A DNA stretch of 64,000 nucleotides, taken from assembly GCF_016107525.1 (NCBI RefSeq), contig NZ_JABASR010000015.1:1-64000 (forward strand), read 5' to 3'. Of this stretch, positions 26,355-39,085 are shown piece after piece; position 1 is the stretch's first letter; every line of letters begins with the position of its first letter. The translations under genes were made by a program, and so were the position numbers. The notes beneath the pieces were generated by a model. It made no database searches. It was given only the letters and a program-made list of their open reading frames with translations, and was not told the DNA's origin. This DNA is from Psychrobacter aquimaris. GTDB lineage: Bacteria > Pseudomonadota > Gammaproteobacteria > Pseudomonadales > Moraxellaceae.

Positions 26355-27374
26355 ATGTCAAAAATGCTTGTATCAAAATCATCCGTCAATATACGCATGA
26401 CAAGTAATATCACTGCACTAACGACTTTTATGCTATTAACGGGTTGTCAGACGCTGCCGAATACAATGTCTAAAGCGATTCAAGCGTCTGCTAATCATAT
26501 GAGTGCGAGTCGTCATCCACTAACGGCGCGAATGCCAGCGATAGATCGGCAAGGGCGCATTGCTTACGTCGAGGAGCAAGGGTTGGGAATAGCCAAAGTA
26601 TCGACACTCTATAGTATCCGTCCCGATGGCAGTGATCGTCAGCTTATCGATCAGATCAATGGCTATATCTATGCGCCAGCGTGGTCGACTGATGGGCAAC
26701 TGCTTGCTTATAGCAAACAAGCGCCGCGCCAGCATCCAAAGATTTATATTTACAATCGGGGCAATAGCACGCGCAATCTGGTAGTCAATGTCGAAGGCAG
26801 TAATATGTCAGCGTCATTCTCACCTGATGGTCAACATCTACTCTATAGCTCAACTGTCGGTGGCAATGCGGATATCTATGAGATGCGTTTGAGCGACGGT
26901 AGCACCAAGCAGCTCACGACCTTACCCAGTACAGAGGTTCAACCAAGCTATGCAGCCGATGGTAAAAGCTTTGTCTATACCAGTGATAAAGTTCGCGCGG
27001 GTCGTCCAAGTATCTATCGTTATACCTTTGCCACGGGTAATGCCGTACTCCTATCGACAGGTAGTTATGCCGCCAGTCCGCAGCTGAGTATGGATGGTCA
27101 GCGCATGGCTTACCTAAATGGTCGTAAGGCGGCCGTTATGACGCTGACGACTGGACAAGTCGTGAATCTAGCAGAGACTGGACTCGATGAACCCGCTCGT
27201 CTATCTCCCTCTGGAAACTATGTTGTCTATCCAACACGCCAGTCAAAAGTAGGTGGACAAACAGGGAAGAAAAATGGTGGAGATTTGGTTATACATTCGC
27301 TCTCAGGAAATACAAGTTACGCCATCAATAGTCAAAATGGTGGGGTCGTGCGCTCACCGATATGGGGTCGTTAA
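26355..27374 (+). CDS. TolB-like beta-propeller lipoprotein
   Basis: A 339-aa protein with a lipobox MLLTG-C at about residue 31 and a PD40/WD40-like beta-propeller made of repeated blades. Examples are GRIAYVEEQ-SIRPDGSDRQLI, YAPAWSTDGQLLAYSK, MSASFSPDGQHLLYSS, VQPSYAADGKSFVYTSD and ARLSPSGNYVVYPT. The propeller resembles the C-terminal half of TolB, but the TolB N-terminal domain and the tol-pal neighbours are missing, so it is not TolB itself. It may act as a periplasmic scaffold. A second in-frame ATG at 26397 would give a more standard-length signal peptide. Confidence 0.8.
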   Translation: MSKMLVSKSSVNIRMTSNITALTTFMLLTGCQTLPNTMSKAIQASANHMSASRHPLTARMPAIDRQGRIAYVEEQGLGIAKVSTLYSIRPDGSDRQLIDQINGYIYAPAWSTDGQLLAYSKQAPRQHPKIYIYNRGNSTRNLVVNVEGSNMSASFSPDGQHLLYSSTVGGNADIYEMRLSDGSTKQLTTLPSTEVQPSYAADGKSFVYTSDKVRAGRPSIYRYTFATGNAVLLSTGSYAASPQLSMDGQRMAYLNGRKAAVMTLTTGQVVNLAETGLDEPARLSPSGNYVVYPTRQSKVGGQTGKKNGGDLVIHSLSGNTSYAINSQNGGVVRSPIWGR

Positions 27375-27555
27375 CAGCCACAGCTATATATTATGTAATG
27401 AAATGTATATATAATCATTAATAAAGAAACATAAGTCGATTCTAGAAATATAGATATAACAGCATCAATTCGAGCAAACGTCATTCATGTCATACCAAAT
27501 TGTACAACCGAGTCATTAAGATACTAAATTAAGTGAGCAAGGGAGAGAAGGTTTA

Positions 27556-28212
27556 ATGCAAGAAGCTTTTTTAGTATTCATCACTAAAATCAGTTTATAT
27601 CCCACGATTATTTTTACTGGGCTTGTGATGTTCGTTACCTTATATTGGGTCGTATCTTTACTCGGTATGGCAGATATGGATAGCGTAGAGCTTGGGGAGT
27701 CAGGCGGTGATGCTGATGTTGCTAACTTATCATCGACTGGTTTTTTCACGGGTCTCATGCTCAAGTTTGGTCTTTATGGCGTTCCTTTAATCATCATACT
27801 AAGCTTAGTTAGTTTGATCGGTTGGCTGCTCAGTTACCTATATACCAGTTTTTTACACCAGTATTTTGACTCAGGCATTCTGTATTATTTGTTCGGCACA
27901 GGGGCACTCGTTTTTGTCTTGGTCGTATCGATGTGGTTGACCGGTCTTATCATCTCGCCCATCCGCAAAAATATCGCCAAAATCCCCAAGCGCAATTCGT
28001 CTAGTAATGTGGGTAAAATCGCTGTTGTGCGCACGCTCAGTGTGACCGACAAACATGGCGAAGCAGTGCTCAATGATGGCGGCGCAGGATTGATACTCAA
28101 GATTCGCTCAGACATCAATGATAATTCACTAAAACAAGGCGATAAGGTGGTATTGGTAGAGTATTTGGATGAGGCCAATACCTATCGCGTAACGCCAGTT
28201 AAAGACAAATAA
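27556..28212 (+). CDS. YqiJ/NfeD-like OB-fold membrane protein
   Basis: A 218-aa inner-membrane protein with three hydrophobic helices (about 12-35, 73-95, 112-135) and a C-terminal small beta-barrel (about 150-215, KIAVVRTLSVTDKHGEAVLNDGGAG onward) like the OB domain of NfeD proteins. Proteins of this type are almost always encoded beside a flotillin/SPFH protein, as here and as in E. coli yqiJ-yqiK. They are thought to partner flotillin in membrane microdomains. AGAAGG precedes the ATG by six bases. First gene of the flotillin/AAA block. Confidence 0.82.
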   Translation: MQEAFLVFITKISLYPTIIFTGLVMFVTLYWVVSLLGMADMDSVELGESGGDADVANLSSTGFFTGLMLKFGLYGVPLIIILSLVSLIGWLLSYLYTSFLHQYFDSGILYYLFGTGALVFVLVVSMWLTGLIISPIRKNIAKIPKRNSSSNVGKIAVVRTLSVTDKHGEAVLNDGGAGLILKIRSDINDNSLKQGDKVVLVEYLDEANTYRVTPVKDK

Positions 28213-28330
28213 CGCTCATCAATGATATTGGTCAGTGAATGGTGGCTTAATAACATATAAAAAATAAGCATTTAGTAAATATAGCAAGGGTTTTAAATTC
28301 GCTTGGAATGTTTTAATTAAAGGAATGGAT

Positions 28331-30406
28331 ATGGACATACTCATTATCGTCGGCGTGGTTGTGGTGCTGGCGTTTGTTTTCATTATGGCAGCACTTTTGA
28401 TGCTCAAAGCCTTTTATATTAAGGTGGATCAGGGCACAGCACTTATTATTAACGGCGTCAATAAAATCGCTGTACGCTTTGATGGTGGCTTTGTGTGGCC
28501 AGTCATCAACAAAAAAGAACTCATGAGAATCTCGTTGCTCACTCTAGAGGTGGACAGACGTGGTAAAGAAGGACTGATTTGTGCCGATAATATGCGTGCT
28601 GATATTACGGTGGCATTTTATTTGCGTGTCAATGAAACCGAAGAAGATGTTCTTAAAGTTGCCAAATCAGTTGGCGTAGACAGAGCCTCAGACAAGGTAG
28701 CGGTCAACGAGCTATTTAATGCAAAATTCTCAGAAGCACTAAAGACGGTTGGTAAACAGATTGATTTTGTCAAGTTGTTTGAAAACCGCAGCCAGTTCCG
28801 TGACAGTATCGTCCAAGAAATCGGTAACGATCTAAACGGCTATATCCTAGAAGATGTAGCGATTGACTACTTAGAGCAAACGCCAAAGACATCATTAGAT
28901 TCAAGTAATATCCTAGATGCTGAAGGTATCAAAAAGATTACTCAGCTAACCGCCTTTCAAAATGTCATTACCAATGAGCTTGAGCGTGACGAAGAGCTGG
29001 CTGTTAAGAAAAAGAATGTCGAGACCAGAGAGGCGATGCTGGAGCTGGAGCGTCAACAAGCCGATGCTGAAGCCAAGCAAAAGCGTGAAATCTCGTCAGT
29101 GATTGCGCGTGAAACGGCTGAAACGCGCAAGATCGAAGAAGAAGAGCGCAAAAAGTCAGAAACCGCCGTTATCATGGTTGAGCAAGATTTGGCGATTCAG
29201 CGTGAGAATCAGCAACGTGAGATCGAAGTGGCTGGACAGAATCGCCTGCGTGCCGTGGTCATCGAAGAAGAAAAAGTCACACGTGCTCGTGATTTGGAAA
29301 TCGTCTCGCGTGAGCGTGAAGTTGACTTGCAACGTATCGAAGCGGAGCGTGCGATTGAGCTTGAGAAAAAAGAAATCGCCAATGTCATTCGTGAGCGCAT
29401 CGCGGTAGACAAAACAGTGGCGCAAGAAGAAGAGCGTATCAAAGAAGTTCGCGAAGTCAGCGAAGCCGAACGTTCGAAACAAACGCGCGTACTGGCTGCG
29501 GAAGCGGACGCTGAAGAAATCAAAGTGCGTCAGGTGAAAAAAGCAGAAGCAGAAGAGTTATCTGCCAAGCATAAAGCCGTCGAGATTACCACGCTTGCTA
29601 CTGCCAATCTTGAAGCCTCTGCTAAAGAGTCAGAAGCCAAAATCAAAATGGCTGAAGGTATCAAAGCAGAAGAGTCTGCACATGGCTTTGCTGAAGCCGC
29701 TATCCAAGAAGCCAAGTCGGTCTCTTTGGAAAAAGAGGGTATTGCTAGAGCCAATGTTATTAAAGCGACTGGACAAGCTCAGGCTCAGACAGACCGTGAA
29801 AAAGGGATGGCTGATGCCGAAGTTATTGCAGCTCGCGGCGCCTCTAAAGCAAAAGCTGAGCGTGACATTGGTATGGTAGACGCAGAGATTATCGCTGCTC
29901 GTGGTGAGTCTAACGCCAAAGCCGAGCGTGATGTTGGTATGGCAAATGCGCAGGTCATCGCTGCTCGCGGTGAGTCAAATGCCAAGGCAGAACGTGAAGT
30001 TGGACTGGCAAAAGCCGAAGTGACTCGTGCACATTTCCAAGCCGAAGCAGATGGTTTGGTCGAGAAATTCAATGCCATGGGTAGCATGAGCAAAGAGGCA
30101 CGCGAGCACGAAGAGTTCCGCATGAGTCTTGAGACGGCCTTGCAAGAAGCGCTAGCGTCAATCGAAGCGGGTAAAGAGATTGCCAAAGAAAATGCCGAAG
30201 TCTTGGCAGTGGCGCTACAAAAAGCCAAAATTGATATCGTGGGCGGTGAAGCACACTTCTTTGATAACTTTGCCAAGTCACTGTCGATTGGTAAAGCCAT
30301 TGATGGCCTAGCGGGTAAGTCAGATACATTGAGCGGTATCATCAACGGTGTGATGGCCAATCAAGTCATGAAAGCCAACCAGTCAAATAACGACAAAACT
30401 ATTTAA
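28331..30406 (+). CDS. yqiK: Flotillin family protein (YqiK-like)
   Basis: A 691-aa SPFH protein. An N-terminal membrane helix (about 2-25) is followed by the SPFH/band-7 domain (about 30-190), then about 350 residues of charged, Glu/Ala/Lys/Arg-rich coiled coil, and a short C-terminal region. Flotillins oligomerise under the membrane and organise microdomains. The coiled coil includes four tandem 22-residue units at 29795-30055. ATG codons occur at 28325 and 28331; AAAGGA ends at 28324, so only the second is properly spaced. The repeats make the protein longer than E. coli YqiK (553 aa). Confidence 0.9.
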   Translation: MDILIIVGVVVVLAFVFIMAALLMLKAFYIKVDQGTALIINGVNKIAVRFDGGFVWPVINKKELMRISLLTLEVDRRGKEGLICADNMRADITVAFYLRVNETEEDVLKVAKSVGVDRASDKVAVNELFNAKFSEALKTVGKQIDFVKLFENRSQFRDSIVQEIGNDLNGYILEDVAIDYLEQTPKTSLDSSNILDAEGIKKITQLTAFQNVITNELERDEELAVKKKNVETREAMLELERQQADAEAKQKREISSVIARETAETRKIEEEERKKSETAVIMVEQDLAIQRENQQREIEVAGQNRLRAVVIEEEKVTRARDLEIVSREREVDLQRIEAERAIELEKKEIANVIRERIAVDKTVAQEEERIKEVREVSEAERSKQTRVLAAEADAEEIKVRQVKKAEAEELSAKHKAVEITTLATANLEASAKESEAKIKMAEGIKAEESAHGFAEAAIQEAKSVSLEKEGIARANVIKATGQAQAQTDREKGMADAEVIAARGASKAKAERDIGMVDAEIIAARGESNAKAERDVGMANAQVIAARGESNAKAEREVGLAKAEVTRAHFQAEADGLVEKFNAMGSMSKEAREHEEFRMSLETALQEALASIEAGKEIAKENAEVLAVALQKAKIDIVGGEAHFFDNFAKSLSIGKAIDGLAGKSDTLSGIINGVMANQVMKANQSNNDKTI
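29795..30055 (+). repeat. In-frame tandem 66-bp repeats in the flotillin coiled coil
   Basis: Units begin at 29795, 29861, 29927 and 29993, each exactly 66 bases, the last one degenerate. Each encodes 22 residues of the form R-D-[IV]-G-M-x-[DN]-A-x-[IV]-IAARGESNAKAE. Protein identity between units 2 and 3 is about 85 percent and the DNA is diverged at third positions, so the array is not a very recent duplication. Confidence 0.9.
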
Positions 30407-30499
30407 TAATATGCTCTGTCTTTATAGATTGTGGACATGTCTTATATTTCCTTCATAAGTGCTTATCTAAAGCGCTTATGATTGGATTTTACCCTTAAT

Positions 30500-30534
30500 G
30501 AGTAATCTGTATCTCAGTGGTAGATTACTCCAAT
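30500..30534. repeat. Hairpin upstream of the giant ATPase gene
   Basis: GAGTAATCT at 30500-30508 and AGATTACTC at 30522-30530 form a perfect 9-bp inverted repeat with a 13-base loop. ATTGG and CCAAT flank it as an outer pair. It lies about 95 bases after the flotillin stop. No T run follows. Confidence 0.55.
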
Positions 30535-30563
30535 CCACTTATTCTAAACACCTTAAAGAACGG

Positions 30564-30640
30564 TAGCCAACTCATTATTTATGATGAGTTGGCTAATCTA
30601 AAAAATCTGTCGTGATGACGCGTTTTTTTAGATTAGCCAA
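30564..30640 (+). promoter_or_regulatory. Two mutually exclusive hairpins in the ATPase leader (attenuator-like)
   Basis: Hairpin A pairs TAGCCAACTCAT (30564-30575) with ATGAGTTGGCTA (30584-30595), 12 bp. Hairpin B pairs TTGGCTAATCTAAAAAA (30589-30605) with TTTTTTAGATTAGCCAA (30624-30640), 17 bp perfect. The segment TTGGCTA at 30589-30595 belongs to both, so only one can form at a time. The region lies 60-135 bases before the ATG of the 2072-aa ATPase. The structure is direct sequence; a regulatory role is inference. Confidence 0.55.
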
Positions 30641-30698
30641 GTGCTTCTTTACCTTCAATTATTCCTTATTGCCAAAATATAAAAATGGACGAGCAACG

Positions 30699-33600
30699 AT
30701 GGCGGATACGCAAAACCAAACCAATTCAGATAGTAAAAGTGATCCTAACGCTAACCAAGCAAATCAGGCCGTTGCCTCAGGCAATGCGTATGAGCTCATC
30801 AAAAAACGCCTAACAGAGCAAGGCAGCCGTTTAGAGCAACAAACGGCTACTCTGAACACTGCACGCCTACAAGAGTTCGGCAGTACTCAAATGCAGGTAA
30901 TTGCCCGCACGCGTATCCGTACCGAGCATAACTGTGTGGCGCAGGATATGGTACAAGTCGGCGATTATCTGTTGTTTGGCTACAATGTGTTTATGGGGCT
31001 AAAGCGCGCAAGCAATGTTAAAGATGTGCTGTCGCTATATCGCTTGATAGACCCTGCTAACAAAGAGGATCGTGATGAGAGTCAGCAGGGCGATCTCGGT
31101 AACGATGATAGCATTCATAAGGAAAGCACTGAGCAAGATTATCAGCTTGAAGAGGTCGATTTAAAAGGAACGTTTTTAGATCAAGATGCCTTTGTACAAG
31201 ACTTCAATGAGCTCTATCGCTATTACAAGCAAACACGCCTGATTCAACTGACCGTTAAGGACAGCAAGTTGCTATTGGCGTTTCAGATTGGTGAGCGTAT
31301 CACTGATATTCGCGTGTTTCGTTTTGCGTTGGACTTTAGCCAAGGCACACCAGAGTCTGCTCAAGTCGCCTACGTGGACAATCGAGGCGAGCGTGATATC
31401 GAGTTGCCGCCTGCCTATGACTTTGATTGGATCGAGACCACACGAGAGCAGATGATCAATGGTAAGTATCCGCACATGAATATCTTAGATACGATATTTG
31501 TGGAAACCGTCGGCGGTGATTTGACCATCAAGATTGAAGACAATACGCAGTCAGGGAATGGTATCTATAGCGAGCCTGTCAATGATCGCACCCAGTCTCT
31601 CACCGATGCTGAGATTTCCTATGCTAAAGTCGGTAGCTTAATCCTCCTCAAAATATTGCCTTATCGTGAGGACAGTTACCGTTACTTCGTTTATAACACC
31701 TTGACTGAAGCGGTGCTGCGTTTGGATGCGATCGGTCAGTCCTGTGTACAGTTGCCTGAAGATCACGGCATTATATTTCCGGGTGGTTATTATCTACAGA
31801 CGGGCGAGTATAAGCTGTTCGATGCCAATAGTGTCGGTGCCAAAAACCTAAAGTTTAAGCGTAAGATTATCTCGACCAATGGCGAAGATGTTTTATTCTT
31901 ATTTTATGACAGAGAGCTGGGTATCACGGGGCTGTTTCCTTATAACCTGATCAAAAAACAACTGGCAAACCCGATTTATTGTAATGGTATGGCGTTGGCA
32001 GACAACGGTCGCTTGGTATTGTTCAGTGACCAAAGTGAGCCGTCGCGCATTCACCCGATGCAGATATGGCACACCCCTTATGCCTCCCCTGAATATGTGA
32101 GCGAATTGCCTGAGAGTACCAGTTTTTATGGCAAAATCGGTAACAAAGAGCTGGTGCGCGGCATCTCTGATCTTTATAGCATTACCCGTCTCATTGACAA
32201 CCAAAGCGTGTCGCAAAAACTCTATGAAGAGCTGTCGGACAATACCAGCAGATTGTTTGATAGCTACTATTGGCTGTCTGAGCCTGAGCTGGGCGACGTC
32301 GCCAGTAGTATTAAAGAAGTGACAGCGACCGCTGAGCTGGTCATTGATGAGTTTGCCAAAGTCCAAAGTATCCAAAAGCAAACGCAAACGGCGCTTGCCG
32401 ATGCCGAAGCGCAGCAAAATGAGATTTTGCGGCAGATACGCGTTACGACATTTGAGTCTGCCAGTGATTATGTCGATCAACTGTCGGCATTGAGACGACA
32501 AAAGGGTCGTTTGGTCAGCCTAGAAGATTTACGCTATTTAGACAGTGATAAATTAGAAGCATTGCAGGCACAGCTAGAAGAAGCAGAGAGTGATCTTGCG
32601 GAAAAAACCGTGCTGTTTTTAAGCGGCGACGAAGCACTATCAAGCTATGAAGGGATCTTGGTCGATGTCAGTGAACGCTTAAACACGGCAGAAACCAATG
32701 CCGAACTAAAGCCTGTGTTGGATAAAATTGATGACACGGCGCAAGGGTTAGACTTGTTGACCGAACTGCTTGGTACGTTGGATGTTGCTGATGCCACGGT
32801 ACGCACGCAAATCATCGATGACATATCGACTATTTATGCCAGCCTCAACCAGAGTAAAGCCAAGCTCAATCATAAACGCAAAAATTTAGGATCGGCAGAA
32901 GCGGTCGCGCAATTTGGTGCGCAGTTTAAGCTGTTTGGTCAATCGATTGCCAACGCCTTATCGATTGCCAATACGCCTGAAAAATCAGATGAGCAAATGG
33001 CAAAGCTGCTGGTACAGTTAGAGGAATTAGAAAGCCAATTCGCTGATCCAGAGACCAATAGCGGCGATCAGTTCTTAGCCGATATCATTAGTAAGCGCGA
33101 AGAGATTTACGAAACCTTTGAAAATCATAAGCAGCAACTGCTCGATGCCCGCAATCGCAAAGCGCAAAACCTAGGCGATGGGGCGCTACGGATGCTTGAG
33201 AGTATCAAGAAACGCACACAAAGCACAGGCGTGACTGGCTTTACCGAGGAAGAAGCGCTCAATACTTACTTTGCCTCCGATGGTCTGGTGCAAAAAGTCC
33301 GCAACATCGCAAAAGAGCTACAAGCGATGGGCTTTAGCGTCAAAGCCGATGACATTGATGCGCGTCTAAAAGCTATCCAAATCGAGAGCTATAAGAGTTT
33401 AAAAGATAAGTCGGACTTGTTTGAAGATGGCGGTCAGATCATCAAACTGGGCAAGCATCGCTTTTCGGTCAATACGCAGCCACTAGATTTGACCTTACTC
33501 AGTCGCCAGCAGTCAGATGGCACACGCGTGCTCAATTTGCATCTGACGGGAACAGACTACTATGAAGTGCTCAATGATGCTGAGCTAAATGCCTTGCGTC

Positions 33601-36600
33601 CGTATTGGGAGATGAATATCGCCTCCGAATCCGACAAGGTATACCGCGCCGAGTACTTGGCCTATAGCATCATCGAGAGCGCCAAAAACAGTCAAGATGG
33701 CCTAACCGAAACGCGCCTATACCAAGCATACGACGAAACCGTCATTACGTTAGATATCAATGGCAATATCGATAATGACAGTCCGCTAACGAAACTGGTC
33801 AAGACTTATGCTACTCCTCGCTATCAGCTGGGCTATGACAAGGGCATTCATGACCATGATGCCACGCTGTTATTGATGCAAATACTGCCGACATTACGTG
33901 CGGCAGGGCTACTGATTTATACGCCGCAAGTACGCGCACTGGCGCAGTTATTTTATTGGCAGCTAAATATCGTACAAGCGCTGGGTTTAGAAAGCCTACG
34001 TCAATTTGGTTATGATAATTGGTTAAATGAATCAGTGCTGACCCTCGCAAATAACTGGACGGATAGAGCGGCTACCGCTGAGCAGTTGCGCCGAGCACTT
34101 GGTAGTGACACTGCCAAATCCTTACTGGTCGAGGATATGAGCCAAGTGATGCACCGTTTTGTCGCGGCCTATCGTGACGAGCGTATTGGCAGTAGTAATA
34201 ATGCTAATCAGCCGTCAAACGCCGCATGGGAGTCAGAACCAGATTCAACTCCCCTTGATGTTCACAACACCAATATCTTTAAACCAAGCTATGTACAGCT
34301 TGCCTGCGAATACTTAGTCAGCGTCATGGGGCAGTCAACGGAGCCAAATGCTGCCGCATATAGCACAATGAACTGGCAAACCAGCCAACAAGCCGAGCAG
34401 CTGTGTGAGCAGCTTAGCCAAACGCTGAGTAGCTCTCCCGTCAGTACGCAAAATAATGCCAGTTTTGCGCAGCTACAGTCTTCAATTGGTAAGCTTGGCT
34501 TCCAACCAAAATCAGCCTACGAGCTACTGGCGACATGGTTTCATGCATTGCTTGATAAGACTTATGGTAATCATAAGACAGCTACAGATCAAACCGATGA
34601 TGGCTTGGGTGAGGCAGGTGAGGCGTTCAGTGAAGAGCAGCTTTCTGAACGTCAAGAAAAAGAAGCGCTACGCAAACAGCAACTAGAGAGCGGTCGTCAT
34701 TATGTGCCCGAAGCGATTGCTGTACTACTCACTCAACTAAACGATGCGCAGCGTGAAGCCTTGGTACAGCGACTGATTGATTCAGGTGCGAGCTTTAATA
34801 AAGATGGCGCAAATGAAGGGACAACTGATGCCGCTTCCACTTTGTCGTTCTCTTCACCTTCAACGTCATCATCAACGTCACTGACCAGTATCAATAACCC
34901 GCTCAATCAAGTGCAAAGCTTTGAGCGTAGCACAGGTAAAGTATCGCTTGAAATACAAGTGAATAGTCTACTGGGTGAGCATACGCGTATTCGTCAGCAG
35001 AGCCTAACCTTTGCCGTTGATAATTTCTTAAATCGCTTGCATCACCACGATACCCAAGTTATTCCTGCCTATCGACGCTATCTGGCCATGCGCTCAGAGA
35101 TATTACACGAGTCAAAAGAAACCTTGCGACTGGACGAGTTTATGCCACGCCCGTTGTCCTCATTTGTGCGTAACCGTCTGATTAACGAGAGCTATCTGCC
35201 GCTTATCGGTGACAACCTCGCCAAACAAATGGGTACAATCGGCGAGGATAAGCGGACTGACTTGATGGGTATCCTGATGATGATATCGCCACCAGGGTAT
35301 GGTAAAACGACCTTGATGGAATATGTAGCAAATCGTCTTGGCCTGATATTTATGAAGATTAATTGTCCGTCACTCGGTCATGATGTCACTTCATTAGATC
35401 CCGAAAAAGCGCCCAATGCTACCGCACGGGAAGAGCTGAATAAAATCAACTTAGCCTTTGAGATGGGCAATAACGTCATGCTTTATCTCGATGATATTCA
35501 GCATACGCATGCGGAATTTTTACAGAAATTTATCTCACTCGGCGATGGTACGCGCCGTATCGATGGCGTCTGGCAAGGCAAGACCAAAACCTATGACATG
35601 CGTGGCAAAAAGTTCTGCGTGGTCATGGCGGGTAATCCGTATACCGAGAGCGGCGAGGCCTTTAAAGTGCCTGACATGCTTGCCAACCGTGCCGATATCT
35701 ATAACTTGGGCGATATTATGAGCGGTATGGAAGATATCTTTGCCCTCAGTTATATCGAAAACTCCCTAACCTCTAATACGGTTCTCGCGCCACTGGCAAA
35801 CCGCGATTTGAGCGATGTACATCGCTTGATTAAAATGGCAAAAACGGACAATCCCAACCTCGCCCAAGCGCAAAGCAGCGATCTAATGTATCCGTATAGC
35901 ACCTCAGAAATTAACGAGATTGTCGCCATCCTGCGCCATATGTTTCGAGTGCAAGAAGTCATTTTGGACGTCAACCAAGCCTATATTGCCTCCGCTTCGC
36001 AAGACGATAAATACCGTGTCGAGCCGATATTTAAGCTACAAGGCAGTTATCGCAATATGAATAAAATGACCGAAAAGCTGTCAGCGGTCATGAATGAGAA
36101 TGAGCTAAACCAGCTGATAGACGATCACTATCTGGGCGAGTCGCAGCTATTGACCCAAGGTGCAGAGAGTAACTTGCTCAAGCTTGGCGAGATGCGCGGC
36201 ACCTTAACCGAGGCAGAAAAAGAGCGTTGGGCGCAAATCAAAGCGGACTTCTTACGTAACAAAGCCATGGGCGGTGAAGATGGCGATACAGGCGCACGTA
36301 TCGTTGCGCAGTTGGTCGATTTGGCCAGTGGCTTCAATGCCATCAGTCGTCAGTTTGAGACGTACTTAACCAAAAATGATCCAGAGCAAATCGCCCGCTT
36401 ACGAGAAGCAGAGCGCCAAGCCCAGTTAGAGACTCAGATTGAGGCGCAGTTAGCCTCACAAAAAATCCTTGCCGATAGCGTGATCAATAATGCCAAAGTC
36501 GTCAGCGATAGCATCGATAATGGCTTTGAGAAAAGCGTGAGCCAATTGCTGCAAATATATAAGCACGACCACGAAGCAGAAGGCGAGTACCTCAAGCAAA

Positions 36601-36917
36601 ACCAAGACGTGCAAAAAGTGCTGATGGTGCAGCTGATCGATGCCGTGGAACAACTGGCACACAATATGGCGGACAGCTTATCTCGTAGCTTAGCCGAAAG
36701 CCTAATTAAGAACGATGACAGTAAAGCTGTAGAGAAAAATGCGCCTGATATCCATGAGCAGACCACACTGATGGCGAACGTCCTCAAGCAAGCGCTGGCA
36801 CCACTGACGATGCGCATGGATGAGAAGCTAGCGATTGATAGCAGTACTGATCAATCTGGTAAACTGATCGTCAACAGTCTCAATCGCTTAAATAAAATAT
36901 TTGACGATTATGACTAA
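30699..36917 (+). CDS. Giant DUF3686-type AAA ATPase (DNA repair ATPase family)
   Basis: A 2072-aa protein. The N-terminal 500 residues are a beta-rich DUF3686-type region (family named ATPase involved in DNA repair). Long coiled coils (about 510-850) follow, then an alpha-helical middle, a Ser/Thr-rich low-complexity linker near 1385-1405, and a C-terminal AAA domain. Walker A is SPPGYGKT at 1530-1537 and Walker B is VMLYLDDIQH at 1593-1602. Sensor-like VMAGNPYTESGE and NRADIYNLGDI follow. The last 250 residues are coiled coil again. The frame is open to 30612, but MADTQNQ at 30699 is the more natural start. No transmembrane helix was seen. DNA repair is a database label, not shown here; the flotillin neighbour suggests a membrane-linked role. 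Confidence 0.85.
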   Translation: MADTQNQTNSDSKSDPNANQANQAVASGNAYELIKKRLTEQGSRLEQQTATLNTARLQEFGSTQMQVIARTRIRTEHNCVAQDMVQVGDYLLFGYNVFMGLKRASNVKDVLSLYRLIDPANKEDRDESQQGDLGNDDSIHKESTEQDYQLEEVDLKGTFLDQDAFVQDFNELYRYYKQTRLIQLTVKDSKLLLAFQIGERITDIRVFRFALDFSQGTPESAQVAYVDNRGERDIELPPAYDFDWIETTREQMINGKYPHMNILDTIFVETVGGDLTIKIEDNTQSGNGIYSEPVNDRTQSLTDAEISYAKVGSLILLKILPYREDSYRYFVYNTLTEAVLRLDAIGQSCVQLPEDHGIIFPGGYYLQTGEYKLFDANSVGAKNLKFKRKIISTNGEDVLFLFYDRELGITGLFPYNLIKKQLANPIYCNGMALADNGRLVLFSDQSEPSRIHPMQIWHTPYASPEYVSELPESTSFYGKIGNKELVRGISDLYSITRLIDNQSVSQKLYEELSDNTSRLFDSYYWLSEPELGDVASSIKEVTATAELVIDEFAKVQSIQKQTQTALADAEAQQNEILRQIRVTTFESASDYVDQLSALRRQKGRLVSLEDLRYLDSDKLEALQAQLEEAESDLAEKTVLFLSGDEALSSYEGILVDVSERLNTAETNAELKPVLDKIDDTAQGLDLLTELLGTLDVADATVRTQIIDDISTIYASLNQSKAKLNHKRKNLGSAEAVAQFGAQFKLFGQSIANALSIANTPEKSDEQMAKLLVQLEELESQFADPETNSGDQFLADIISKREEIYETFENHKQQLLDARNRKAQNLGDGALRMLESIKKRTQSTGVTGFTEEEALNTYFASDGLVQKVRNIAKELQAMGFSVKADDIDARLKAIQIESYKSLKDKSDLFEDGGQIIKLGKHRFSVNTQPLDLTLLSRQQSDGTRVLNLHLTGTDYYEVLNDAELNALRPYWEMNIASESDKVYRAEYLAYSIIESAKNSQDGLTETRLYQAYDETVITLDINGNIDNDSPLTKLVKTYATPRYQLGYDKGIHDHDATLLLMQILPTLRAAGLLIYTPQVRALAQLFYWQLNIVQALGLESLRQFGYDNWLNESVLTLANNWTDRAATAEQLRRALGSDTAKSLLVEDMSQVMHRFVAAYRDERIGSSNNANQPSNAAWESEPDSTPLDVHNTNIFKPSYVQLACEYLVSVMGQSTEPNAAAYSTMNWQTSQQAEQLCEQLSQTLSSSPVSTQNNASFAQLQSSIGKLGFQPKSAYELLATWFHALLDKTYGNHKTATDQTDDGLGEAGEAFSEEQLSERQEKEALRKQQLESGRHYVPEAIAVLLTQLNDAQREALVQRLIDSGASFNKDGANEGTTDAASTLSFSSPSTSSSTSLTSINNPLNQVQSFERSTGKVSLEIQVNSLLGEHTRIRQQSLTFAVDNFLNRLHHHDTQVIPAYRRYLAMRSEILHESKETLRLDEFMPRPLSSFVRNRLINESYLPLIGDNLAKQMGTIGEDKRTDLMGILMMISPPGYGKTTLMEYVANRLGLIFMKINCPSLGHDVTSLDPEKAPNATAREELNKINLAFEMGNNVMLYLDDIQHTHAEFLQKFISLGDGTRRIDGVWQGKTKTYDMRGKKFCVVMAGNPYTESGEAFKVPDMLANRADIYNLGDIMSGMEDIFALSYIENSLTSNTVLAPLANRDLSDVHRLIKMAKTDNPNLAQAQSSDLMYPYSTSEINEIVAILRHMFRVQEVILDVNQAYIASASQDDKYRVEPIFKLQGSYRNMNKMTEKLSAVMNENELNQLIDDHYLGESQLLTQGAESNLLKLGEMRGTLTEAEKERWAQIKADFLRNKAMGGEDGDTGARIVAQLVDLASGFNAISRQFETYLTKNDPEQIARLREAERQAQLETQIEAQLASQKILADSVINNAKVVSDSIDNGFEKSVSQLLQIYKHDHEAEGEYLKQNQDVQKVLMVQLIDAVEQLAHNMADSLSRSLAESLIKNDDSKAVEKNAPDIHEQTTLMANVLKQALAPLTMRMDEKLAIDSSTDQSGKLIVNSLNRLNKIFDDYD

Positions 36918-36981
36918 TAATTATGCGTAGTAGGCTATAGTGACAGGTTGCTGATGTTGTAAACAAATTAATGAGAAATGT

Positions 36982-37152
36982 ATGGCGCACAAAAAAAAGA
37001 ACGTTCGAAAAAAACTCTGCCCCGTCTGCGAGCGCGAGTTTAGCTGGACTAAAAAGCTGGATAAAAACTGGGAGAGTATGGTGTATTGCTCAGACCAGTG
37101 CCGACGCATTAAGAAGTATGAAGGGCTGGACCATCAAAAAGAAGATAAATAG
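36982..37152 (+). CDS. DUF2256 small zinc-ribbon protein (first copy)
   Basis: A 56-aa protein with [10 protein letters not shown] near the start and YCSDQCRR later, giving two CxxC-type pairs for one metal ion, probably zinc. The [14 protein letters not shown] core fits the DUF2256 consensus. It starts 64 bases after the giant ATPase. Function of the family is unknown; in many genomes a DUF2256 gene sits beside cryptochrome/photolyase-like genes, which are not present here. Confidence 0.85.
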
Positions 37153-37196
37153 GCGTTAATAGTCAGTTAGAGATATACGGGAAAAAGGAGCAGACA

Positions 37197-37343
37197 ATGG
37201 CACATAAAAAAGTAAACTTACCGCAAAAAACCTGCCCCGTCTGTCAGCGCCCATTTATATGGCGTAAGAAGTGGGAGAAAGATTGGGAGCAGGTGATTTA
37301 TTGTTCGGAGAAGTGTCGGCGGGGGAAGGGTAAAGCAGATTAA
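37197..37343 (+). CDS. DUF2256 small zinc-ribbon protein (second copy)
   Basis: A 48-aa paralogue of the gene just upstream, with [19 protein letters not shown] and YCSEKCRR. This copy is nearer the family consensus ([16 protein letters not shown]) than the first. An AAAAAGGAG ribosome site sits seven bases before the ATG. It lies 44 bases after the first copy, so the two are very likely co-transcribed and arose by duplication. Confidence 0.88.
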
Positions 37344-37369
37344 GTTACTTCAAAATATTAAGGTAAATT

Positions 37370-37589
37370 ATGAGTAAACATTATGAGCAATCAAGCTTCT
37401 GGGAAAAGCTCATTGAGCACTTGTTCATTGGTGAAATGCTAAAATTATCATGGCTGAAAGATGATTGCCAACTAGAGGTCATGAAACCTGAAGTCGATAA
37501 TTCAGGTTGTAACGTTTTCTTTGAAGAATAGTATTATTCGTCGTATTCAGCTTAAAACATTAAAGCTGGGTAGGAAAATCTTAAGTTAG
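37370..37589 (+). pseudogene. Frameshifted remnant of a PD-(D/E)XK-like protein
   Basis: From the ATG at 37370 (AAGG seven bases upstream) the frame reads SSFWEKLIEHLFIGEM, then LEVMKPEVDNSGCNVFFEE and stops at 37529-37531. Moving one base forward, the next frame continues NSIIRRIQLKTLKLGRK and stops at 37587-37589. Joined, these give the D-x-x-G ... E ... I-Q-L-K layout of a PD-(D/E)XK-type fold. The sequence resembles uncharacterised accessory proteins of about 150-180 aa that I recall with this N-terminus. One base was gained or lost near 37526, and the C-terminal part is missing or decayed. Confidence 0.55.
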
Positions 37590-37962
37590 AAGATGAAGAC
37601 GAAATTAGAATTCAAAGAACTCATGTATATTTACTATTTCGCATAGCAAGACTAAAAATTTACTTGTTATTTTAAGAGAGGTAAAAACTATAATTTTCTA
37701 AATTTAATAAGGATGATTAAAAGACTTTATTTTTTTGTTACTAAAAGAGGAAAATTTAAAGTCCTTGAAAAAGTATTATAGAAAAAATAACTTACTACAT
37801 AAATATGTAATAAACAGACTTTCTTATATCTAATCCTACTATACTTCTAACTTCAGATTTTCAGTAATTAATAATATTTGAAAATAGTTTCTACTCTATA
37901 ATATAAAAAACTGCCCAGATTTAGGACAGTTTTTGAAAAATAAATTACTTTTAATTTAGATG
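37590..37962. other. Very AT-rich non-coding stretch
   Basis: About 370 bases of roughly 20 percent GC by eye, with stops in every frame. It is probably decayed coding sequence of the upstream remnant, plus the terminator at 37905. Nothing else was recognised. Confidence 0.5.
37905..37936 (-). terminator. Terminator of the protease unit
   Basis: AAAAACTGCCC and GGACAGTTTTT form an 11-bp stem with one mismatch and a seven-base loop. It lies 27 bases beyond the stop at 37963 and reads into a T run on the minus strand. Confidence 0.75.
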
Positions 37963-38176: not shown

Positions 38177-39085
38177 CTAATTCAACCTTACTAAGTTGTT
38201 GGAGCCATGAAGTGCCATTTGATTTCCGGTCTTAGTTAAATAATCCTTTAATACATCATAGTACATTCTAATAGTAGTATTAAGATCATCCGTGTCAGAA
38301 AAGTTGTTAATCTGTAATTTTATATCATCACCTGTTAGTTCCTTTAGACCAATACCTCTACCATGCATATGCCAGCGGTTAACATCGCCAAGAATGGTTG
38401 CAATATCAGTAGCTCTTTGTTCTTTCATTGTATATGTAACTTTATCTGTTTTTGTTGCAGTTGTATGCCAATCTTTAAATTTATATTTAACAAGCCAGTT
38501 AACAATGAGCGTCTGGGAAAACTTAATATGCTGTTCAATAAAAGCAAGCTTTTCAGGCTGAAAAGAGCTAGTAAGATAGTTTATTTCAGCAATAACTGGT
38601 ATGTTTTGAGATGCTTTTTCATTTATTTCATTTAGTAAACGATTATATTCGTGAAGGTAGCCAGTAGCTGGCAAGTAATGACCATCGCTATTCATTATTT
38701 GAGGATCAATCGGACCTAAGACAGAAAAGTTATCCATGTAGATCTCGTCACCTGATAAGACTAAAACTGTACCAGCTGAAAACGCAAAGCCCGGCACAAT
38801 AAATTTTATATGAGAATAATTGGCTCGGAAAACATTGACGATTTTCTCAACTACTTCAACTGAACCGCCTGGTGTCTCTAGAATAACTACTAAATTATCT
38901 TTCAAAGTGGGCGTGTTTAGAGATCTATCTTTAATATCTTCTATATATTGTCTAACTTTAACGTCAACACCATCTATCATCGGTGAAAATATAGTAATAA
39001 TATCTGCATTAAAAGTTATAGAAAGCGATTTAATTTGTTCACCTAGAAAATTGAAAATAACATCATCTACGGTTGCCTGAAACAT
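38177..39085 (-). CDS. SDH-family Clp-fold serine protease
   Basis: A 302-aa protein of the ClpP-crotonase fold, closest to the serine dehydrogenase proteinase (PF01972-type) group. The oxyanion/substrate strand VVILETPGGSVEVVEKI has TPGGS at 71-75. The nucleophile Ser103 lies in GFAFSAGTVLVLSGDEIYMD, and VLGPIDPQI near 122-130 supplies the acid-side residue. No signal peptide or membrane helix, so cytoplasmic. Codon use and low GC set it apart from the core genes either side. It is the first gene of a two-gene unit. Substrate unknown. Confidence 0.75.
   Translation of the reverse strand: MFQATVDDVIFNFLGEQIKSLSITFNADIITIFSPMIDGVDVKVRQYIEDIKDRSLNTPTLKDNLVVILETPGGSVEVVEKIVNVFRANYSHIKFIVPGFAFSAGTVLVLSGDEIYMDNFSVLGPIDPQIMNSDGHYLPATGYLHEYNRLLNEINEKASQNIPVIAEINYLTSSFQPEKLAFIEQHIKFSQTLIVNWLVKYKFKDWHTTATKTDKVTYTMKEQRATDIATILGDVNRWHMHGRGIGLKELTGDDIKLQINNFSDTDDLNTTIRMYYDVLKDYLTKTGNQMALHGSNNLVRLN

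Follow-up and report, generated by a model that had tools for sequence, protein, structure and literature searches.

The 64,000-bp window analyzed here lies at the start of contig 6 of the 3.43-Mb genome of Psychrobacter aquimaris and contains a set of three genes, here called the triad, which encode a YqiJ/NfeD-type membrane protein, a flotillin (SPFH), and a very large DUF3686 AAA+ ATPase. An initial annotation of this DNA had described five consecutive same-strand genes, the triad followed by two very small CxxC proteins, and all five open reading frames (ORFs) proved to be open on the plus strand at the positions given here. The first gene (27556 to 28212) encodes a 218-residue protein with three hydrophobic regions whose relatives are encoded 5' of a flotillin gene. 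The second (28325 to 30406) encodes a 693-residue flotillin with one N-terminal hydrophobic segment, which its position and its pairing assign to an ATPase-linked subtype. The third (30699 to 36917) encodes an ATPase of 2072 residues when read from its ATG, or of 2101 residues from an alternative GTG further 5', with a single marginal hydrophobic segment. The three products are the predicted counterparts of BacC, BacD, and BacE, respectively.

The ATPase was assigned from Pfam, alignments, and AlphaFold2 models, and the two smaller proteins were assigned through their relatives, as neither had a match in Pfam at an E value of 0.1 or lower. A flotillin from plasmid pQBR103, 46% identical to that of the window, matches Band_7 at 9.3e-11, and a Deinococcus relative of the YqiJ-like protein matches NfeD at 0.0024, which is under the curated cut-off. 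Sequence searches of the PDB returned only two matches for the flotillin, with E values of 0.5 to 0.6, and none for the YqiJ-like protein; profile searches returned one weak match to QmcA (0.0042) for the former and one match at 0.15 for the latter.

Within the genus, the ATPase and the flotillin were found together almost without exception. The ATPase is carried by 56 of 100 Psychrobacter genomes. Of the 60 genomes matched in the flotillin search, 55 have a close copy (at least 87% in the best segment) and 5 have only a relative at 28 to 29%; all 55 genomes with the close copy are ATPase carriers, none has this flotillin alone, and the 5 genomes with only the distant relative have no ATPase (Fisher P = 9e-28, which is no true probability because the genomes are related). 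The initial annotation had named rare co-occurrence in other genomes as the outcome that would speak against a joint module, and such rarity was not seen, the pair being present in 55 of the 56 carriers and, in the wider sample described below, at 94 of 98 loci. The only carrier without the flotillin (G031) comes from a fragmented assembly of 89% completeness, in which the ATPase matches end to end, and it may be a natural case of a motor parted from its scaffold. Just 5' of its ATPase gene, in the place expected for the flotillin and YqiJ genes, are a Mu-type transposase and further phage-like ORFs (L150:13600-19901), the first of them within about 300 bp.

On a tree of GlnD, a single-gene tree of 97 genomes with some weak nodes, the presence of the triad changes at least 21 times by a rough count, compared with 32.2 changes on average and never fewer than 24 in 300 shuffles of the labels, and the flotillin tracks the ATPase through these changes, G031 excepted. 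Three genomes (G056, G058, and G076) were dropped from the tree because their GlnD is in pieces; their triad genes are also broken, and these breaks were not used as evidence, as the state of GlnD points to assembly errors. In another genome (G020, L147), the ATPase matches omit residues 1211 to 1776, including the AAA core, and the adjoining flotillin gene contains stops, which hints weakly at joint decay of the two genes; the GlnD of this genome also shows one stop.

The site occupied by the triad is bounded in the window by two genes that we do not count as members. On the left, a TolB-like beta-propeller gene (26355 to 27374, plus strand; NCBIfam TolB at 189.6 bits, below the cut-off of 343) serves as a site marker. 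On the right are the genes for the two CxxC proteins, both of the DUF2256 family and both on the plus strand, at 36982 to 37152 (56 residues; Pfam E = 1.2e-12) and 37197 to 37343 (48 residues; E = 9.1e-22). Stretches from 18 of the 44 noncarrier genomes were compared, 17 of which were picked by the position of DUF2256, together with one genome that has none (G083). In 12 of the 18, the TolB-like gene ends 31 to 79 bp before DUF2256. In two others, G036 (L257:9196-9720) and G069 (L258:8786-9344), the C-terminal 182 ATPase residues (1891 to 2072) are left between the TolB-like gene and DUF2256. This remnant is a shared deletion scar, in which the YqiJ gene, the flotillin gene, and most of the ATPase gene were lost together. 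Three of the 18 stretches had no TolB-like match, and in G083 the TolB-like gene is at the edge. Three ATPase carriers have no DUF2256, two without a TolB-like gene beside the triad (G082 and G088) and one in which the triad is at a contig edge (G049). The empty sites and scars show cassette-like behavior of the triad at the TolB-like/DUF2256 site and assign DUF2256 to the site itself. In the genomes examined, the members of the triad are gained or lost as one unit. About 0.8 kb past DUF2256, on the opposite strand (38177 to 39085), is a gene for a stand-alone ClpP-like SDH-type serine proteinase (Pfam 1.7e-15), for which the searched Psychrobacter loci, not all of which extend that far, gave no match.

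The same linkage was found beyond the genus. In a sample of 398 Pseudomonadota genomes, DUF3686 was present in 8, including G000. A profile of the ATPase-linked flotillin, with up to two candidates scored per genome, matched 51 genomes, 8 at 759 bits or more and 43 at 235 bits or less. The 8 high-scoring genomes are exactly the 8 with the ATPase, and none of the other 43 has it. The matches of these other flotillins stop between positions 331 and 534 of the 699-position profile, so the ATPase-linked subtype is most different at its C-terminal end. The ATPase was also found in 12 records of a plasmid collection, some of them chromosome sized (Pseudomonadota, Deinococcota, Actinomycetota, and Bacteroidota), and in at least 584 matched stretches of GTDB genomes, which correspond to fewer genes since two patterns were used. 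No ATPase was found in the phage records searched.

Gene order was compared at 98 loci, comprising 7 from the phylum sample, 11 of the 12 plasmid-collection records, and the best 80 GTDB loci; 8 are from Psychrobacter and 90 are from other organisms. Because every locus was found through the ATPase, this set is uninformative on flotillins without it. The flotillin gene is 5' of the ATPase gene on the same strand at 94 loci, within 700 bp at 92 of them, and three of the 94 have only a C-terminal piece of it on the contig. The four loci without an upstream flotillin are contig edges with no more than 201 bp of upstream sequence. A YqiJ/NfeD gene precedes the flotillin gene at 89 loci; in eight of the nine misses the upstream sequence is no longer than 1861 bp, and the ninth, in Streptomyces globosus, has room upstream and still no such gene. 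Outside Psychrobacter, the gap between the flotillin and ATPase genes has a median of 101 bp and is 150 bp or less in 60 of 87 cases. The YqiJ/NfeD-type protein, the flotillin, and the DUF3686 ATPase thus form a three-gene module with two unrelated neighbors in the window, and that part of the joint module proposed in the initial annotation stands on co-inheritance and constant order, while the part that included the DUF2256 proteins does not.

Other genes near the triad at the 90 non-Psychrobacter loci encode YjfI (40 loci), PspA (39), phospholipase D (PLD)-like proteins (21), rhomboid proteins (18), Zn_ribbon_TFIIB proteins (12), and TelA (7), each class named from one representative among the 10 of 70 neighbor clusters that were scanned. 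The membrane-stress role suggested in the initial annotation fits the PspA, YjfI, PLD-like, and rhomboid neighbors. The TFIIB-type zinc ribbon, of a different family from DUF2256, is encoded on mixed strands in the fetched sequence of 12 loci (L035, L038, L059, L069, L075, L079, L122, L127, L128, L130, L133, and L141). A conserved protein of about 110 residues with no Pfam match is encoded close to the triad, in the same orientation, at 10 loci (e.g., L133:6183-6515).

The ATPase consists of an N-terminal all-beta region, a long helical region, and a C-terminal AAA+ core. Pfam matches are DUF3686 (E = 1.4e-191; residues 45 to 524), DUF7902 (645 to 729), and AAA_5 (3.8e-07; 1526 to 1649). Its Walker motifs are intact, as first annotated, with SPPGYGKT beginning at residue 1530 and YLDDIQH at residue 1596. 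Relatives are mostly 1600 to 1860 residues long, and the window protein has a lineage-specific insert of about 327 residues; the closest named relatives among the matches listed are on Psychrobacter contigs (77 to 91% identical). In an alignment of the ATPases from 97 of the 98 loci (the split L086 was omitted), the checked Walker A residues, both aspartates of Walker B, the asparagine of AGNP, and the arginine of PDMLANRAD are constant, and the arginine of LQGSYRNM is present in 96, with one gap. These residues outside the Walker motifs are presumably sensors or fingers. The conservation of PDMLANRA and LQGSYRNM proves little, as 80 of these loci were themselves retrieved with these two patterns.

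AlphaFold2 models were built for two overlapping parts of the protein, residues 20 to 1130 (mean pLDDT, 79.8) and 1031 to 2072 (76.8). The N-terminal model, in its own numbering, has a helix followed by an all-beta region (47 to 440) and long helices (457 to 888). Foldseek matched this part to propeller and long helical proteins, the propellers only at TMt values of about 0.2 to 0.36, and the C-terminal part to RuvB, ClpB, CbbQ, and NorQ, with a best E value of 9.5e-5. Sequence searches of the PDB with the ATPase returned Rix7 at 0.03 to 0.06. CbbQ and NorQ invite comparison with MoxR-type systems; no VWA partner was among the ten neighbor clusters scanned, although no search aimed at VWA was made. 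No peptidase domain was found in Pfam at an E value of 0.1 or lower. Nothing resembling the AAA region was found in Escherichia coli at the DNA sensitivity used.

Between the flotillin and ATPase genes is a hairpin (30589 to 30640, plus strand) with exact 17-base arms at 30589 to 30605 and 30624 to 30640, and the genome contains no other full copy of it. The left arm can also form a competing hairpin with a segment further 5' (30564 to 30595), so that the region from 30558 to 30650 holds two mutually exclusive hairpins with one arm in common, an arrangement that recurs in many Psychrobacter carriers. Of 37 Psychrobacter loci, which represent 33 distinct genomes, 26 (in 25 genomes) have exact 12-base inverted repeats with an A run. 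Full pairing in these 25 genomes is partly by construction, as exact repeats were sought; one has changes on both arms, and several have G-T pairs. The competing hairpin can form at 15 of 16 loci that were folded. The two hairpins may act in termination (possibly as a tandem terminator), in attenuation, or in both. Rfam had no family for the region from 27300 to 37700, and scans gave numbers of sites at chance level, both for sigma-70 promoters (18 found, 17.6 expected) and for terminators (11 found, 10.6 expected). Because a strong hairpin lies between the genes, flotillin and ATPase may or may not be co-transcribed in Psychrobacter.

The closest described system is the bac operon of Pseudomonas aeruginosa. 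The YjfI protein encoded beside triads has a match in PDB entry 8q8o, of the DUF2170 family; in our reading, this entry is the published BacA structure (PMC10948618). A genome that carries the 8q8o protein at 99% identity (G505), taken for P. aeruginosa, encodes in order YjfI (206 residues), PspA (231), an NfeD-type protein (213), a flotillin (688), a DUF3686 ATPase (1746), and a PLD-like protein (235), matching the six genes bacABCDEF. The window proteins are 35% (NfeD type), 62% (flotillin), and 45% and 62% (two segments of the ATPase) identical to their equivalents, and from these alignments the triad is the putative counterpart of bacCDE, the third to fifth genes of the operon, in the same order. 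In strain PA14, bacABCDEF (PA14_16140 to PA14_16200) was reported to be one operon by reverse transcription-PCR, with its products increased 6.1- to 13.5-fold in a bacA mutant (8.9-fold for PA14_16190, bacE); the word ATPase is absent from the main text of that report (PMC10948618). The Psychrobacter locus differs in having no bacA (YjfI), bacB (PspA), or bacF (PLD-like), in the greater length of its ATPase (2072 versus 1746 residues), and in the hairpin before the ATPase gene. YjfI was not among the genes beside the triad (the rest of the genome was not searched for it), and the genes after the ATPase gene encode DUF2256 proteins rather than BacF, which was not found at the locus. PspA, the defining part of the phage shock protein (PSP) system, was not found above the cut-off in any of the 100 Psychrobacter genomes; two weak matches fell below it, neither of them in the genome of the window. 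The triad can therefore stand alone.

Operons of AAA+, flotillin, and YqiJ genes, including abbreviated forms without PspA, were described in 2024 (Ravi et al., PMC11237479), and the features of those operons, an ATPase with an AAA+ core and the same-strand flotillin and three-transmembrane YqiJ/YuaF genes upstream, are all present here. We infer that their AAA+ ATPase is DUF3686. The propeller and coiled coil that they place before the AAA+ domain would correspond to the all-beta region and long helices modeled here, the propeller matches being those at TMt of about 0.2 to 0.36 only. Their suggestion that abbreviated operons act with a PspA encoded elsewhere does not hold for Psychrobacter, in which no such helper rose above the cut-off, and DUF2256 is absent from the main text of their paper. 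The kind of operon is thus already known, from that survey and from bac, and the triad is a PspA-less form of it. What appears to be new, as far as the literature was searched, is the one-to-one pairing with a flotillin subtype, the PspA-less form, and the conserved hairpin pair before the ATPase gene; in that literature DUF3686 is not named and flotillin was not found together with "DNA repair ATPase."

Other flotillin systems resemble the triad in part. The yqiJ-yqiK operon of E. coli (SPFH2/NfeD2; PMC2636767) is reported to pair an NfeD-type gene with a flotillin gene; the other flotillins of the 398-genome survey (at most 235 bits versus at least 759, in 43 genomes without the ATPase) stand apart from the ATPase-linked subtype. 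FtsH-HflKC, described as an AAA+ ATPase with an SPFH scaffold in stress (PMC13220708), is similar in concept, but FtsH is a membrane-bound protease, whereas the window ATPase has no protease domain and one marginal hydrophobic segment. In Staphylococcus aureus, FloA-NfeD is described as holding unfolded proteins in stress independently of ATP (PMC11222466), whereas the triad has a built-in ATPase. Human flotillins are reported to form a cone-shaped cage on membranes (PMC11260169). Deletion of the flotillin SO1377 of Shewanella oneidensis, which may or may not be of the ATPase-linked subtype, reportedly altered iron metabolism and peroxide sensitivity (PMC1468410).

The co-inheritance of the genes indicates that the ATPase very probably works with the flotillin scaffold. 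We favor, at a probability of roughly 55%, a module whose ATPase remodels proteins at an SPFH scaffold during envelope stress, a mechanism read from partners and folds. The flotillin and the NfeD-type protein would together form an SPFH scaffold, bound to the membrane and facing the cytoplasm. The ATPase, a soluble protein, would dock on this scaffold, perhaps with its propeller/coiled-coil half bound to the subtype-specific C-terminal part of the flotillin. Once docked, it would form a ring, and in envelope stress membrane-associated proteins would be remodeled, extracted, or disassembled at the cost of ATP, so that the ATPase would be to its linked flotillin roughly what FtsH is to HflKC, minus the protease. 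The module would act beside YjfI-PspA in many bacteria and without detectable PspA in Psychrobacter. A more ambitious and only tentative version is a self-contained ATP-driven flotillin machine, with the dedicated flotillin subtype and a propeller-plus-AAA+ motor in one membrane complex. It would be an SPFH-AAA+ class beside FtsH-HflKC that remodels rather than degrades its clients and would be PspA free in Psychrobacter, where a two-way RNA hairpin in the intergenic region of the motor and scaffold genes would set the ratio of the two products.

Several observations weigh against an envelope-stress remodeler of this kind. Deletion of the P. aeruginosa flotillin PaFlo3 (PA14_16180, bacD) was reported to cause a biofilm loss of about 20% and no loss of peroxide tolerance (PMC13086221), and an insertion mutant in pa3728, which from its number would be bacE of strain PAO1, grew well and was used as a control strain (PMC12599236). 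At two loci, the flotillin gene is 2.0 kb (L090) and 3.4 kb (L097) from the ATPase gene, and the Psychrobacter hairpin may uncouple ATPase transcription from that of the flotillin. Walker B ends in D-D rather than D-E in all 97 aligned ATPases, a feature that may affect the rate of ATP hydrolysis. The fold matches are modest, as shown by the best E value and the low TM-scores, and the models cover halves of the protein. The distance correlation is unspecific, being 0.90 for ATPase and flotillin and 0.83 for ATPase and PspA at 37 common loci, and was dropped as specific evidence.

The ATPase might instead be a Vps4-like disassembly factor that recycles the flotillin (or PspA) polymer itself and not client proteins. 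Such a role would explain the one-to-one pairing with one flotillin subtype, and PspA and YjfI are encoded at 37 and 38, respectively, of the 73 non-Psychrobacter loci whose upstream sequence is 7.9 kb or longer; PspA/AAA+ systems are likened to ESCRT-III/Vps4 by Ravi et al. (PMC11237479). PspA is not a required substrate, however, given 56 Psychrobacter genomes with the ATPase and none of the 100 with PspA above the cut-off, and no MIT-type domain is among the Pfam hits of the ATPase. We regard this role as unlikely.

An exchangeable antiphage defense system, the other function offered in the initial annotation, would account for the patchy cassette that changes state so often at one site in the genus and for the presence of the ATPase on plasmid-collection records, and PA3728-PA3732 of P. 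aeruginosa were reported to be increased in all phage-infected samples (PMC12041424). That induction is expected of a membrane-stress operon as well. PADLOC, at an E value of up to 1, had no family for any of the five genes, and for the P. aeruginosa counterparts it gave only LmuB (1.2e-4, to the helical part of BacE) and PLD-type matches to BacF, the best being DrmC (9.6e-9). Defense as the function is accordingly improbable. Still less credible is a role in DNA repair, which draws on the Pfam and record names ("ATPase involved in DNA repair" and "DNA repair ATPase") and on RuvB as the best fold match, because ClpB, CbbQ, and NorQ match nearly as well, the constant partner is a membrane scaffold, and the ten scanned clusters of the 70 neighbor clusters included no repair gene; the family name is probably misleading. 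A five-gene module that takes in both DUF2256 proteins as zinc-ribbon partners, as first annotated from their same-strand adjacency, can be rejected with near certainty, since DUF2256 (92 of the 100 genus genomes) is found in 39 of 44 noncarriers as well as in 53 of 56 carriers, directly follows the TolB-like gene in most empty sites, and, by a profile of the two window proteins that matched all 8 Psychrobacter loci, is beside none of the 90 triads elsewhere (80 with at least 1 kb of downstream sequence), 12 of which have only the different, TFIIB-type zinc ribbon in the fetched stretch.

A three-gene module whose ATPase remodels at a flotillin scaffold would bear on a long-standing question, the function of bacterial flotillins, whose deletions often have faint phenotypes. 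The one-to-one link between a flotillin subtype and a large ATPase makes the function of that flotillin approachable through the motor. The triad joins three threads: the bac (biofilm) operon of P. aeruginosa, the AAA+/flotillin operons of the PSP survey, and the "DNA repair ATPase" family. Psychrobacter, as a genus without detectable PspA, offers a clean setting for the triad alone.

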